DNA from: Capsaspora owczarzaki ATCC 30864
Lineage: Eukaryota; Opisthokonta; Filasterea
Assembly: GCF_000151315.2 (NCBI RefSeq)
Contig: NW_011887298.1
Coordinates: forward strand, 640,577 to 704,576
Direction: 5' to 3'
DNA: 64,000 nt
Part shown: positions 6,320-12,228 of the stretch, piece after piece
Position numbering within the stretch: the stretch's first letter is position 1
Layout of the letters: each line of letters opens with the position of its first letter
The notes under the pieces: generated by a model
What the model saw: only the letters and a program-made list of their open reading frames with translations
The model's database searches: none
What the model was told of the DNA's origin: nothing
Position numbers and translations under genes: made by a program

Positions 6320-6330
6320 AGTGCGTGAGT
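6320..6330. repeat. Left copy of 11-bp direct repeat (probable target-site duplication)
   Basis: AGTGCGTGAGT abuts the left inverted repeat and recurs in the same orientation at 11980-11990, abutting the right one. Confidence 0.6.
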
Positions 6331-6429
6331 GGGGGGGGGGGCACATGCGCTACGCTAGTGCTTCACATGTTGCCCTTCGGGCTTAAGAACAACTCCCAAA
6401 CAAACGGGTGCCTCCTCTGATAATATATA
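6331..6429 (+). repeat. Left terminal inverted repeat of the element
   Basis: Begins with an 11-base G run and matches the reverse complement of 11885-11979 almost base for base. The few differences are one position near GCACATG and a few in the inner CCTCCTCTGATA part. Confidence 0.8.
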
Positions 6430-6448
6430 GATCTACACGTATTGGACA

Positions 6449-6781
6449 ATGAGTCAAACATTTTGTGTAAAGTGTCAAAAGAAGACTGCCGACGTTGGTA
6501 GCCAGCTTGTGACGGGAGGAAGGACACCCAGGCTCGCCAGCACCTGTGGGGTATGCGGTGGCAAAAAGAGCGCCTTTGTCTCGTCTACTCCAACCAAGTC
6601 TGGAGGCCATATATACACGGTTAACGAGTTCAACCGGTTTCTAACTGGGCGCAACGTTTTTGATGGGTTTACAGCATACTATATCAGCCGTAGACTAGGT
6701 GTCAGGGCAATAGTCAACGAGAAAATAAGATTTGTCACTGTATTCATCCGAAATGGTCACAGCAGAGTACTCCCAATATGA
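6449..6781 (+). CDS. Small Cys4 zinc-ribbon-like protein of the TIR element
   Basis: An open frame of 110 codons that starts 20 bp inside the left inverted repeat. The N-terminal part has two CxxC pairs (FCVKCQKKT at residue 5 and STCGVCGGKKSAFVS near residue 32), the layout of short zinc-ribbon proteins of the DUF5679 type, which I associate with phages, large DNA viruses and Polinton-like elements. The second half (HIYTVNEFNRF, then FDGFTAYYISRRLG) is not recognised. Base composition is more A/T-rich than in the host genes around. It is best read as a viral or Polinton-type piece; no other part of such an element was confidently recognised nearby, so the source element looks heavily reduced. 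The function is unknown. Confidence 0.55.
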   Translation: MSQTFCVKCQKKTADVGSQLVTGGRTPRLASTCGVCGGKKSAFVSSTPTKSGGHIYTVNEFNRFLTGRNVFDGFTAYYISRRLGVRAIVNEKIRFVTVFIRNGHSRVLPI

Positions 6782-6974
6782 AGCTGCAAAATCGCCTCCG
6801 TCACGAGACGCTGTCCCGTCCGCTCTCCAATAAAATCCGAGTTGTTGTGCGTTGAAACCCCCGCCTGTAGTCCGTGGATGACGGTAGACTCAGTGTAGGC
6901 TGCGCGGCGGAGGGGGTTGTGGAGTGCGGTTCCCAAAGCGCGCGCGACCCACCTCACCGTGGTCCCTAGACAGC

Positions 6975-8237
6975 TCAACCGGCATGTTTAGCACGCGTCG
7001 CAGCGCTTGGATGCGAGATCAGATGTCCATGCTTGAATATTCGATGCGTCAGCTGCTTGTGAGCAAAGTCGCCCTTCGTGCACCGAGCATCGTGCTGGCC
7101 GGCGAGAGAAACCTTCCAACCAACAAACCGCAGATTGTTGCCGTCTACTTGAACCAGGACGGATTTCGAAATGGCAAAGGTACACGAGCCTTGCCCTAAT
7201 CCTGGCTGCACGCGGAAGTCGTTGTCGAGTCGATGCGTATGCATGGGGTGTGTGAAGTCCAATGATTCGAGAAATCGGTCTTGAATCATCGACGAAGCTG
7301 GAGACGGCTCCTTGCTGCTCGTTGACCGGTGATTGAAGCACCAGAAGCGCTGTGTCCTTGAGCACAGCACGGGTCGGTTCTCGAACCAGAGGTTGAGTTG
7401 GTTCCGCTCATCTTGCGTGAGGTAAACCGGCGACGTGCCTGGGTGCGAGTTGAGATCATCCTCATCAATGGACTCGGAAACCTCGTCTGCGTGGATGAGC
7501 TGAGCTGCTTCCGGAACCGAAGACACGGACGATGCAGCAAGGTCGTCTTCAGCATCATGTGGAGCGTGGGCAGAGAGAACAGGCGAAGCCGAATCCATCT
7601 CATCTCTGACCTGAGACCTGCGTGACTGACCAGGACAGTAGTCGTGCTTCAAACGCAAGTCGATTGTACTTTGTTGGCTTTCCCAGAAGTCCTCCAGGCT
7701 CTGCGGATCGTTGAACATCAGGCGGGTGTGGGCAAGCTCGGTGAGCCTCGTTGTCGGAGCGTTTCTGGCTGCCTCCTCGGCTGGCTCGCTCGACTGCTGA
7801 TCTTTCAACGCAACTTTCTTGGCAGTAGCTTTTTTACGATATCTGGCGTTGCGATCAGTGCACGACTTGCATGTCTTTCGTCCCTCAAAGAACTCGTACG
7901 ATCGGCGGTCGTGATTGTTTTTGCTGCACCTGAAGGAAACAACCGCCATGAGCTGCGACGTCTTCACAGCTGTGTTGTCATGTTGCACTCGCATGATGTT
8001 ATCTTGGTCGAACGTGACTAGCTGGATGATGGGGGTTTCGGGCGAGGTCAAGAGTTCGGGCGGGATGAAGCCTGGGAGCGCCGCCGTAACATGGCGGACC
8101 ATGAGCCGGTCCGTTCGCGGGGGGAGCTCAAGTTGAAGTGTTTGATCGGCCGGGCTGGGCTTGGCGTCAACCACGAAGGTGACGGTGAGTATTGGCGACC
8201 AGGTTGTGGCGGGATTTTCTGGCGCTGGAACGCTCAT
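6975..8237 (-). CDS. Unrecognised 420-residue protein with Cys/His cluster
   Basis: A single-exon open frame of 420 codons beginning MSVPAPENPATTWSPILTV. Residues about 112-150 form a compact putative metal-binding and basic segment: FRCSKNNHDRRSYEFF, then GRKTCKSCTDRNARYRKK, giving a C-x4-H plus C-x2-C arrangement followed by Arg/Lys-rich sequence, as seen in nucleic-acid-binding fingers. The middle is acidic and serine-rich (residues about 220-290); the C-terminus is Cys/His-containing and not recognised. It lies inside the TIR element on the strand opposite the small Cys4 gene. Neither a transposase signature nor an enzyme motif is visible. Long intact frame and ordinary codon use argue for a real gene; the role is unknown. 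Confidence 0.5.
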   Translation of the reverse strand: MSVPAPENPATTWSPILTVTFVVDAKPSPADQTLQLELPPRTDRLMVRHVTAALPGFIPPELLTSPETPIIQLVTFDQDNIMRVQHDNTAVKTSQLMAVVSFRCSKNNHDRRSYEFFEGRKTCKSCTDRNARYRKKATAKKVALKDQQSSEPAEEAARNAPTTRLTELAHTRLMFNDPQSLEDFWESQQSTIDLRLKHDYCPGQSRRSQVRDEMDSASPVLSAHAPHDAEDDLAASSVSSVPEAAQLIHADEVSESIDEDDLNSHPGTSPVYLTQDERNQLNLWFENRPVLCSRTQRFWCFNHRSTSSKEPSPASSMIQDRFLESLDFTHPMHTHRLDNDFRVQPGLGQGSCTFAISKSVLVQVDGNNLRFVGWKVSLAGQHDARCTKGDFAHKQLTHRIFKHGHLISHPSAATRAKHAG

Positions 8238-9355
8238 TTTGTGAAGATGTGGAGCGCGATGCGTGCGTGCGCGTGTGCGTGCGTTTGTCCTGTGTTTGAT
8301 GCAGAAAGACGTCTAGAACGTGAGGATGGGAGCTCGGTACGCAGAACAGCAAGGGGCGGACGTACGGAGCGATCGAAGAACGATCACAGGGAAAAGGACT
8401 GAGCAGACCGCAAAGATCAACTCTCCCCGTTTTCATCCCGCTCTTTTGGGGCTCGTCCAACGAGCGTCTAAAGTCCCCCCGCGCGCCGCGCCGCTTTTTT
8501 TTGTACATTAAATATGTTTTCTTCTTGTTTTGCAACCACGAAGGAGAGCAGGTCCCAGACGGACAAGCTCAAAACCCACTTTCCAATGAACAACGCTCGG
8601 CGACGCGACGGATCGTCGCGGAGCGACCGAAATTTTCCATTCTCTTTGAAGCGCTCCATTGTGCCTACCTTACGGAACACGAATTGCAAAGCAGAATGAC
8701 GAATATCCGGAAATGCCGAGCGGGCAGTGGCCCGCTCGCGCATATGAAACCAATGCCTTGAAGAACGCCAAAAATCATAAAAAAAAAACGCAAAAAACAG
8801 AAAAAAAGCCAGAAAACAGCCCTCCTTTAGAGCGATCCCCGCCCACTCTGGTGGCCCTAGGCATGCAGTATACATGGTACTGATCACATAGCGCGTTGTG
8901 GCGGCGCTGGATGGCGCACATAGTGGTCAAGGGGACATGGCAAAGTCTTTACTTTTAACAAAACCGGCTTCATATTGAGAGTCCCCTTCTATTACCCCAA
9001 TACGTACGTGAGCATGATACTGATGAACTGGATACACAGTGGGTGAATGAGCTCCCTGAAACCATTGCAGAGATTAACAAGAAGGCGAAAGTGAGAAAGC
9101 CCAATCCAATGCTGGAGTTACCAAAGAAAAGTAGGTGACACAGGCACTCCTGCACTCACACACCCATGCAAAGCAAGTCGTCCGCTCAACGAGCATCGAG
9201 AATGCCGATAAACTTTACAATTGGCTTTTATTCTCAGAGCGACGTCTTCAAGATACTATACAGATGCTGAGAACGCATTGCAACACACGAAAGCGAGCGT
9301 TGGCAGAGGGTGAACGCTTGAAGATGGCTCAAGAAGCCAGAAACAAGGGACGGCC
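8238..9355. other. Interior spacer of the TIR element with unassigned open-frame pieces
   Basis: No complete gene recognised. On the + strand two adjacent pieces in different frames look protein-like: one around 8990-9137 (including NELPETIAEINKKAKVRKP) and one around 9160-9398 (including NADKLYNWLLFSERRLQDT and KMAQEARNKGRPYG). They run into the 3' end of the opposite-strand ATPase. They may be exons of one gene or remnants of element coding sequence; no family was recognised. Confidence 0.35.
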
Positions 9356-10624
9356 CTACGGTCTCGTGCAGTTCAGCAGGGTAGACACAGAGCGCTGAAC
9401 GTGGCGCGAGTGAAGGGTGTAGGTCTTGTTGGGATGGTAAGCGAGAATGTTGACGTTGGTGGCGAGAAGTTTCTTGGTGAGGTCGCGACCAAGAGCCTCC
9501 TCCACATCATCGACATGCTGAGCACCTCGACAGAGACGACAAAAGGTGCTGCTCGCGGGAGGCGATATCTGCGCCAAGTCGCCGAAAAGTCGACGCAGGG
9601 CACCTCGAGTGCCAATGTGGAACTCCAGAAAGATCTGATTCACTTGATGTCCTCTGCCGAGCTGTTTCGTGACCCGATTGAGCAGAACAAAACGCCCGCC
9701 AGCAATCTCAGCAACCGCGCGCTTGGCCGAATCCTCGTTGACGCCACGATGTAGCAGAAAATCGACAGCTTGTTCGTCGGTGAGATCACCCACTTCAACA
9801 ACGCGAGCACGGGTCATCGCTGATGATTCCTCGAGCTCGGGCAGAGTCGAACCATCGCTGGTGACGAGAACAACATTGAGCAGCTGCTCGTCAGCAGCCG
9901 ACTTGGCAAAATTTTGAATCACATGCAACAGTGCTGGACCCTGCTTGGCGATCATGTCTACGGCGTCGATGACGAGCGTGGCAGGGTGACCGTGCTTGGT
10001 CTTGAACTGTTGCGCAACGTCCCTCAGACTGAGACTGAGCAACACCCAGCTCTTAAAGGGTTCTGCTGCCGATGTTACTTCATGCAGTTCAACACCACGG
10101 TCTTTCAAATAGCCTTCTGTGAAGGTGAATTGGTTGAACTCGAAATCTAGCGATTCGGCCAGTCGTTTCGATATGTCGACGAAGAGGTCATCCCGGACGA
10201 TGTGGTAGACAATGCCAGTGCGGTTGGGTCGGATGGCGTCGAGGACGGCGCTGGTCTTGCCGCAGCCTGTTTCGCCAACGACGACCGTGTATGCCTCCAG
10301 CGGCGCGGGGCGCAGCACCCCTTGAAGCATCGCAATAGCATCTGGACGACTGACGTGGTATTTCTCGAAACGTGGGATCACGGAGCCGGCCTCGAAGCGT
10401 GCGAGCATGCGAGCTTGAACGATTTCGGGCGAGTGGGTCTTGGCGATCGTGTACTTGTCGTCCAGCACGTGCCGAGCAACGAAAGCCGCCACAACCAAAA
10501 TAATAAATGTGGTGGAGACCGCCTTGGCGACCGCGCCGCCGATGAAACCGAACTCACCCCGAAAAGCTGGCTGCTGCTGATCCGGGGCCGCAGCTGGAGC
10601 CGCCGCTGGAGCCGCAGCCGACAT
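9356..10624 (-). CDS. Membrane-anchored P-loop ATPase (AAA/STAND-like)
   Basis: Intronless 422-residue protein starting MSAAAPAAAP. A Pro/Ala-rich head is followed by one hydrophobic segment at about residues 25-50 (VAKAVSTTFIILVVAAFVAR), a likely single membrane anchor, and then an ATPase module. The Walker A motif is VVGETGCGKTSAVLD (about residues 113-127) and Walker B is ATLVIDAVDMI (about 213-223). After it comes a sensor-like LLNVVLVTSDGS and a helical C-terminal part resembling the winged-helix lid of archaeal-type or STAND ATPases. The substrate or partner is not evident. It sits inside the TIR element, so it may be captured host cargo or an element gene. The first ATG was chosen; the frame is open a few codons further upstream without another ATG. 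Confidence 0.72.
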   Translation of the reverse strand: MSAAAPAAAPAAAPDQQQPAFRGEFGFIGGAVAKAVSTTFIILVVAAFVARHVLDDKYTIAKTHSPEIVQARMLARFEAGSVIPRFEKYHVSRPDAIAMLQGVLRPAPLEAYTVVVGETGCGKTSAVLDAIRPNRTGIVYHIVRDDLFVDISKRLAESLDFEFNQFTFTEGYLKDRGVELHEVTSAAEPFKSWVLLSLSLRDVAQQFKTKHGHPATLVIDAVDMIAKQGPALLHVIQNFAKSAADEQLLNVVLVTSDGSTLPELEESSAMTRARVVEVGDLTDEQAVDFLLHRGVNEDSAKRAVAEIAGGRFVLLNRVTKQLGRGHQVNQIFLEFHIGTRGALRRLFGDLAQISPPASSTFCRLCRGAQHVDDVEEALGRDLTKKLLATNVNILAYHPNKTYTLHSRHVQRSVSTLLNCTRP

Positions 10625-11107
10625 TTCGGGATAAAACAAGAAAAAACAAAAGAAGAAGAAACTAAAAACTGCGCTGTCATCATCTTTCTCAGCTTTGGCA
10701 ACCCATAATGAGTTGAATAAACCATCGTTCGATTTGTATCATTGTTCTTCCAAGACGTTCTTGTGCCGCTTTTCAAAGCGGTCTGAGTGTTTTGACAAGG
10801 CAGGCGGTTTGTCCAGAGCCCATTGGCGACTTGGCATTGAGGTCGACTGACTTGATAATTGCGTCCCTCTTTTCACTGTCAGCGAGGTCGAGATGCTTGT
10901 GGATGTTCTTCATCTTGGCGGTCATTGGTAAATAGCAAGATCCATTTAGTATTTCTTAAGGCGGTTTCAAAATTTCCAATTCCACTTGCGCCAAACCATG
11001 AATATAAAAGCGTCCGCCTGTGGGTGGGTGCCTGTGTGGGGAGTATGGGGGTAGTATGGGGGCAGTATGGGAGTTGTAAAAATGCAGTATGGGAGTTGTA
11101 AAAAGAG
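10625..11107. other. Spacer inside the TIR element with short G-rich repeats
   Basis: Upstream of the ATPase start. Between about 11038 and 11101 a short motif, roughly GTATGGG(G)-AGTTGTAAAAA, is repeated several times. No gene seen. Confidence 0.5.
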
Positions 11108-11459
11108 GGTGCCCCCTATTGTAATAATATGGGGCCGTTTTTTTAAAAAGGTAGAGTGAACCCCCCAAAATATGTCGTTCATATCCACCACCGTGTCCTA
11201 CGTCGCTTTCCGCCGCTGGTGCTCTGATTGTGTGGTTTACACCATGCCATCAGTGTGCTCGAGGGTCGGGGGCGCAGCGGAAGTGCGTTGGGCGGCGGGG
11301 CGGAGCGAGAAAAGGAGCGGTTTGTGTCGCGGTGTGATTTCTCAGCCAAGCTTTTCCCAGCCCTCAATCTGTGCCACTGCTACATTCTGTTGCGGGTTCA
11401 TCTTGTCCAACAATAATCGGGCCGCAGTAGAGGGCGATTAGCTCCAGCACACTTGGTTA

Positions 11460-11528
<69 letters not shown>

Positions 11529-11910
11529 CTCTCTTGCATGTCCCAACCGAGGGCTGAACTGGTTTTATGCATTCTCTCAGTTTCGGGCTCCTCCTGCCCC
11601 TACCAGACATTGTCCCGATCTCCGATCTAAAGAATTATTTGATGTGGTGTGGCAGCCCGCTGACACTGATTTGCTGCGACGAGGTTGCGTTGACCGTCAC
11701 ACCTTCTCGCGGCCGTACAGTCGCCGGCGGGACAGCGGCGTGTGGTCTGATGCACCGAGTGGCATAGACACATGGTCTACTCTCTCGGGCGGGGGTTGCA
11801 GGGCAGGGGAAAACAATTGCAGAGCTCAGCGACGCGATGGGAGTGAAAGACATGGCGATTCTACCTTTTTAAAAAAACAGCCCCATATATAGTATCAGAG
11901 GGGGGCACCC
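11108..11910. repeat. Nested foldback (MITE-like) at the right end of the element
   Basis: A segment at 11108-11156 (GGGTGCCCCCTA, then ATGGGGCCG, then TTTTTTTAAAAAGGTAGA) is the inverted match of 11860-11910. Arms of about 50 bp therefore enclose about 700 bp. The right arm overlaps the inner part of the element's right terminal repeat, so the foldback and the larger element share end sequence. The interior has no credible gene and contains an uninterrupted A66 run (11461-11526). Confidence 0.7.
11461..11526. repeat. Poly(A) run of 66 bases
   Basis: Sixty-six consecutive A in the foldback interior, the longest homopolymer in the window. The true length may differ, because such runs are hard to sequence. 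Confidence 0.9.
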
Positions 11911-11979
11911 GTTTGTTTGGGAGTTGTTCTTAAGCCCGAAGGGCAACATGTGAAGCACTAGCGTAGCCATGTGCCCCCC
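11885..11979 (-). repeat. Right terminal inverted repeat of the element
   Basis: Reverse complement of 6331-6429, ending in CATGTGCCCCCC. It is followed at once by AGTGCGTGAGT (11980-11990), the partner of the left direct repeat; the flank then continues as a tandem GTGCGTGA array to about 12003. Confidence 0.8.
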
Positions 11980-12228
11980 AGTGCGTGAGTGCGTGAGTGC
12001 GTGGCGCTGACTCCAAAGGCAGTTCGTAACCATGAAGCTGCGGAAAGACCACTTGGTGGTTGTAAAGTACTCCTTCAGTTCCTTGATGATCTCAGTCTTG
12101 GCCTCTGAGTTTTGTCCAAGTTCAACGCGAGGCCTTCAATCCTCTTTGATACTGTACAATTTTAATTTTCAATCCAAAAGCACAACACCCACCCCCTCTC
12201 TTCGCCTCCCCGCCATTCTCATCAAACG

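Follow-up and report, generated by a model that had tools for sequence, protein, structure and literature searches.

The interval at positions 6331-11979 of the window, a 64,000-nucleotide stretch of the Capsaspora owczarzaki ATCC 30864 genome (contig NW_011887298.1, positions 640,577 to 704,576 of the forward strand; coordinates without a contig or locus label are those of the window), is a nested composite in which a known kind of element survives in degraded form, and its make-up is largely explained. The outer shell, about 2.6 kb long before insertions, is non-autonomous and probably derives by deletion from a Polinton-like element. A search of the interior against the genome (27.46 Mb on 29 contigs, here C1, C2 and so on, from which loci L015-L048 were fetched; the repeat counts are lower bounds) separates from this shell a Mutator-like element (MULE) segment at 6755-8996 and a miniature inverted-repeat transposable element (MITE) at 11127-11888. 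Once both insertions are set aside, the shell comprises its inverted ends, the DUF5679 and ATPase genes and an integrase scrap. The first-pass annotation of the interval had suggested, among other options, a cargo-bearing non-autonomous Polinton-like element, a guess that proves largely right, as the integrase scrap and the DUF5679 protein both show a modest match to a Polinton-like provirus on contig 9; its single coherent interior gives way to three nested elements, and a coherent novel interior was rejected because the sequence splits into independent genomic repeats. As nested transposons the MULE and the MITE are unremarkable; the unusual features are a gene-carrying mini-Polinton and, tied to it, a family of mosaic ATPase genes most of which are still readable.

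The shell is bounded by a left terminal inverted repeat that starts with a G run (6331-6430, forward strand) and a right one (11886-11979, reverse strand), both found by an inverted-repeat search. Segments 6336-6429 and 11886-11979 are 95.8% identical over 95 columns and score 147 bits, against at most 31 bits for any inverted repeat in 20 dinucleotide-shuffled sequences, which bears out the ends of about 95 bp first described and provides the terminal inverted repeats expected of a Polinton. The right end forms a hairpin whose inner arm (11107-11126, forward strand), recognised by eye against the right ends of L015, L016 and L018, is parted from its partner by the MITE; the hairpin is uninterrupted in those three loci. 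L018 (4891-5056) carries a lone right-end copy with the uninterrupted hairpin CAGTGCCCCC...GGGGGCACTG, and no match to the interior of the window element was found within that locus. Outside the ends lies an exact 12-base repeat, AGTGCGTGAGTG, at 6320-6331 (forward strand) and 11980-11991, of which a third exact, overlapping copy occupies 11988-11999. As the right flank (11980-12003, forward strand) is an 8-base tandem array, made of 3.0 exact copies of AGTGCGTG and taking in the flanking repeat, the length of the target duplication is not readable from the flanks: the 11-bp duplication originally reported holds as a repeat, 12 bases long and exact, and fails as a measure of the target duplication. 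For the same reason it was rejected as the signature of an element class. By eye, a target duplication of 3/4 or 11/12 bases fits exactly, and the flanks of L015 show no clear target duplication.

The ends recur elsewhere in the genome. Diverged relatives of the left end (75-80%) occur on C2, C5, C12 and C17, a 166-bp end query returned 14 rows, and the core end motif, with at most one mismatch, was found at 14 places genome-wide (reversed control, 0), arranged as two facing pairs (the window and L015) and 10 single ends. L015, on contig 2, is a cleaner relative of the window shell, a unit of 2158 bp in all whose inverted ends (101 and 90 bases, 84% identity) enclose the ATPase gene. The annotation had held that end sequences dispersed as solo repeats, with no other copy of this interior, would speak against an element; the outcome is mixed, the 10 single ends counting against one and the ATPase gene between the paired ends of L015 counting for it.

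Two of the genes between the ends lead to the contig-9 provirus. The DUF5679 open reading frame (ORF; 6449-6781, forward strand, 110 residues, the last of them, from 6755, read from the inserted MULE end) matches the Pfam family with an E-value of 6.7e-6 and 26.6 bits, just below the 27-bit cut-off, and its sole other genome match at E 0.001 is in the provirus, at 39% identity across 51 residues (E 3.8e-4); it is the frame first described as a viral-looking Cys4 protein, and no literature on DUF5679 was found. The Polinton-type integrase scrap (9025-9135, forward strand), a C-terminal part of 37 residues, is 48% identical to the provirus integrase (E 3e-4, the E-values of the integrase scraps being those of a search of the fetched loci only) and 73% identical to an integrase remnant in L022. 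The provirus itself, recognised by its open frames (L044, C9:1045461-1048616; L045, C9:1036600-1041500; L047, C9:1048617-1051200), encodes a Pox_A32-type ATPase (31.1 bits, cut-off 22.8), a DUF5679 protein (35.9 bits, cut-off 27), an Ulp1-like protease (18.7 bits, below the cut-off of 20.7), an integrase of 372 residues (Pfam rve, 25.3 bits, below the cut-off of 32.6) and a 638-residue frame with polymerase-like motifs seen by eye only, in which no Pfam polymerase match was found. Further ORFs look penton- and minor-capsid-like, a resemblance without Pfam support. Its packaging ATPase matches a terminase family of PHROGs (E 1.5e-8), a database that gave no informative match for the two window proteins searched, and viral-contig searches with its integrase, polymerase-like and A32-type proteins yielded nothing informative, such single-protein queries reaching close relatives only. 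A genome search with the provirus integrase gave 11 rows, comprising itself, remnants in L022, L024, L026 and L027, a fragment on contig 1 (C1:3342648-3343106, 50% identical) and others. A 653-residue open frame at C27:7999-9567 is 31% identical to the polymerase-like protein and possibly belongs to a second Polinton-like element, and a weak integrase remnant (E 0.007) lies 5.7 kb inside a single end on contig 17.

The remaining shell gene (9356-10624, reverse strand) lies beside the right end and is read toward the interior, in the direction of the integrase scrap. This open gene of 422 residues, the membrane-anchored ATPase noted at the outset, matches Pfam ATPase_2 at 33.6 bits (cut-off 33.2) and has an N-terminal membrane helix recognised by eye, but two other copies score 19.8 and 23.1 bits. 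The likeness to STAND/ATPase_2-type P-loop ATPases lies in the Walker A (GETGCGKT) and Walker B-like (LVIDAVD) motifs, both read by eye, and in the Pfam score of the window copy, just above the cut-off, while the protein departs from them in its membrane helix, its Polinton-type surroundings and the failure of a sequence search of the PDB to find a solved relative at E up to 1; its AlphaFold model is unusable (mean predicted local distance difference test score 39.8). The family occupies 15 genomic loci (the window, L015-L016 and L019-L030), six of which have at least one recognisable end (the window, L015, L016, L020, where it is partial, L021 and L029), and seven an integrase scrap beside the ATPase gene (the window, L022, L024, L025, L026, L027 and, weakly, L023, E 0.003). 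In L022 and L024 a frame-broken integrase, 36% (E 4e-9) and 44% (E 2e-12) identical to that of the provirus, lies left of the ATPase gene. A direct match to the provirus integrase was obtained for L022, L024 and the window piece among the fetched loci and for L026 and L027 in the genome search, the remnants outside the window being broken or partial.

Several observations weigh against a Polinton origin of the shell. The integrase piece of the window has just 37 residues and owes its E-value to the search of fetched loci, and the provirus integrase also matches two other rve frames, on C5 and C8 (35%, E 2e-4), so that a resemblance to rve is not in itself specific to Polintons, which slightly lowers our confidence in this origin. 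The ends of the provirus, one side of which (L046) is largely N, were not seen, nor hence any ends in common with the shell. A genome search with the polymerase family PF03175 gave no match, as did its controls. A target duplication of 6 bases fits only with a substitution hidden in the G run, hence not at face value. Finally, ends, integrase scrap and ATPase gene occur together in the window and at no other locus, and at three of the 15 ATPase loci (L019, L028 and L030) both the ends and the integrase scrap are missing.

With Maverick/Polinton elements and Polinton-like viruses (PLVs) the shell shares inverted ends, a Polinton-type integrase scrap and a DUF5679 protein related to that of the resident provirus. 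Maverick/Polinton elements measure 14-40 kb, whereas the window element has 5.65 kb and carries another ATPase. No match to a polymerase, capsid protein, adenain-like or other protease, or A32/FtsK-type packaging ATPase was found among the four window ORFs scanned, the ATPase matching ATPase_2 and not Pox_A32, and no other ORF between the ends exceeds 168 residues; we accordingly file the element as a Polinton derivative and not as a Polinton. The earlier statement that polymerase and capsid genes are missing thus stands for these four frames, and the accompanying one, that there is no transposase or integrase, falls, as parts of both lie inside. According to excerpts of the respective studies, PLVs have terminal inverted repeats hundreds to thousands of bp long and, in some cases, duplications of about 4-6 bp (PMC12220804), and vertebrate Mavericks have ends with (AGT)2 or (AG)3 motifs (PMC8097293), which are absent from the ends described here. 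Neither "Polinton" nor "Maverick" occurs in the main text of the Capsaspora transposable-element survey (PMC4007536), and among the papers listed in literature searches no title points to a non-autonomous or internally deleted Polinton or to Polinton cargo. Capsaspora does appear in a tree legend in the virophage-Polinton section of another study (PMC3671162), and to judge from that legend related genes may already have been noticed, which tells against full novelty.

The larger insertion (6755-8996, reverse strand) is an internally deleted MULE with ends GGT.../...ACC. Its relatives are full elements of about 5.5 kb in L031 (1403-6856) and L032 (148-5676) and a partial one in L033. The L031 copy, on contig 14, encodes a 751-residue frame in which residues 575-668 match the Pfam family MULE (41.4 bits, cut-off 27.6), as expected of the transposase. 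In the window copy about 3.2 kb is missing at 6996-6998, and the ORF at 6975-8237 (reverse strand), listed at first as an unknown Cys/His protein of 420 residues, is indeed present and loses its anonymity: its first 399 residues are 95% identical to the full transposase of L031, the catalytic part having been deleted. Target duplications of 9 bp (L031) and 10 bp (L032), read by eye, flank the full copies and fall within the 8-11 bp looked for in this class, and comparison of L031 with L032, also by eye, reveals an empty site at L031 8890-8950. An excerpt of the Capsaspora survey reports two "Com" MULE families with nine-base duplications (PMC4007536). The window copy thus resembles Mutator-like elements in its transposase N-terminus, its ends and its full relatives, and differs in lacking the catalytic domain, the 3.2 kb and a target duplication; its two flanks differ, which points to loss or rearrangement after insertion. 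A segment of L039 (C7:1275780-1276463) is 33% identical to part of the MULE transposase, in an open frame given as 3281 residues, a length that is unreliable because the locus contains 1415 N.

The presence of these elements raises the alternative that fares best against a Polinton derivation, namely that the outer shell is a Pack-MULE-like element moved by a resident MULE transposase and carrying a captured host ATPase together with pieces of viral genes. MULEs commonly have long inverted ends, full MULEs with 9- and 10-base duplications reside in the genome, and the 11/12-base flanking repeat is near the range of MULE duplications (8-12 bp). This repeat, however, sits in the 8-base tandem array, the integrase scraps at seven of the 15 ATPase loci would be left unexplained, and the G-run, hairpin ends are unlike the resident MULE ends, GGTAATAGAAGAG, of the one family examined, for which reason a MULE identity of the outer ends was rejected. 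We regard this alternative as unlikely.

The second insertion (11127-11888, without assigned strand), identified by inverted-repeat and genome searches, is a short, non-coding MITE of 760 bp with inverted ends of about 29 bp and TA flanks, placed in the AT-rich loop of the hairpin adjoining the right end. At least 11 other near-complete copies (89-97%) and additional fragments occur in the genome, the copy in L048 being 96.7% identical over 763 columns, and the flanks, read in two copies, are TA on either side. Length, inverted ends, TA flanks and copy number liken it to TA-specific MITEs (Tc1/mariner/pogo-like), although its ends differ from those of the 3.1-kb pogo-like element of L017 and L024. 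The latter element, 3.14 kb long and present in two 100% identical copies (L017 5563-8708 and L024 648-3792), has a DDE_1 domain (48.2 bits) and perfect inverted ends of 31-32 bp, and looks recently active. Its presence agrees with the Capsaspora survey (PMC4007536), as do the 9- and 10-base duplications of the MULE.

Of the 15 ATPase copies, 14 have an open frame with a stop-to-stop length of at least 431 codons. The L022 frame is broken, and the L023 frame counts as open only when read through an N gap. The start methionine is kept in 11 copies; in L024, L029 and L030 the usual start is missing and the first in-frame methionine lies just before the ATPase domain, which slightly lowers the probability of the dispersal scenario considered at the end. 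L026 and L027 are 99% alike over kilobases and may be one locus assembled twice; the tests of recombination and of the ratio of nonsynonymous to synonymous differences (pN/pS) were made on 13 distinct copies, without L026 and without the broken L022, with L023 kept despite its gap. The pN/pS ratio was below 1 in all 78 pairs (0.47-0.82, median 0.67), and reached 1.05 and 1.19 in two blocks of the gene. A neutral simulation with 5% change per site gave a mean of 1.7 stops per frame and none in 17% of runs, under an assumption of independent lineages that recombination violates; nearest-neighbour distances among the copies are 6-10%. In a pairwise homoplasy index (PHI)-type test the fraction of incompatible neighbouring site pairs was 0.189, compared with 0.493 +/- 0.009 after permutation (none of 1000 as low), and in each of the two copies traced, different parts of the gene have different nearest relatives. 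Mosaicism is strong across the 13 copies: hypervariable blocks, most conspicuous in the C-terminal third, are framed by conserved flanks. Taken together, the pN/pS values, the open frames and the PHI-type result indicate that blocks are exchanged among the copies and that most copies are maintained in readable form, with any selection acting in the host or in the element.

Such a family might also be an ordinary dispersed host family, to which ends and Polinton-like sequence became adjoined through insertion hot spots or segmental duplication, the bracket in the window being due to chance. The open frames, the 10 single end motifs out of 14 and the three ATPase loci devoid of end and integrase scrap all suit this explanation. 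It is nevertheless improbable, as the gene lies between facing ends at two independent loci (the window and L015), the segment common to the loci runs into the ends in L015, L016 and L029, and the 94% similarity between L022 and L024 extends without interruption across both the integrase remnant and the ATPase gene. The undescribed element class offered by the first-pass annotation is not supported. A class of this kind with G-run hairpin ends, in which the ATPase itself would be the mobility protein, is very improbable: between the ends of L015, the shortest paired copy, no long frame other than the ATPase has a recognised domain, and the ATPase is open at 14 of the 15 loci and has no relative among the IMG/VR viral contigs in a search for close relatives, but the integrase scraps offer a conventional source of mobility, and we know of no ATPase_2 protein that cuts or joins DNA alone.

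Returning to the Polinton derivation, the observed ends, nesting and homologies lead us to infer the following order of events. A Polinton-like element would have shrunk to a shell keeping its ends, the DUF5679 gene, the C-terminal scrap of integrase and the ATPase gene, and this shell was probably moved in trans by a related integrase that recognised its ends; an intact element bearing such ends was not encountered in the genome. Later, a Mutator-like element would have inserted into the shell and then lost its own middle, a loss that probably removed Polinton sequence as well, because no target duplication remains. The hairpin at the right end would have taken up a TA-specific MITE in its loop.

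What the ATPase does is conjectural as well. One possibility is that Polintons carry the family as genes of defence or conflict and that mini-elements of the end-ATPase-end type, such as L015, amplified it. A broader and tentative scenario, to which we give some weight while considering it doubtful, is that deleted Polintons dispersed a membrane-anchored STAND-like ATPase whose copies are kept readable by the host or by surviving elements while the element bodies decay, recombination making new combinations of blocks as in variable recognition families. If the derivation proposed here is true, the interval would document gene-carrying, non-autonomous Polinton derivatives and a mosaic ATPase multigene family tied to Polinton-type ends, and it would allow a test of the idea that, in protists, virus-like transposons act as seeds of variable gene families.

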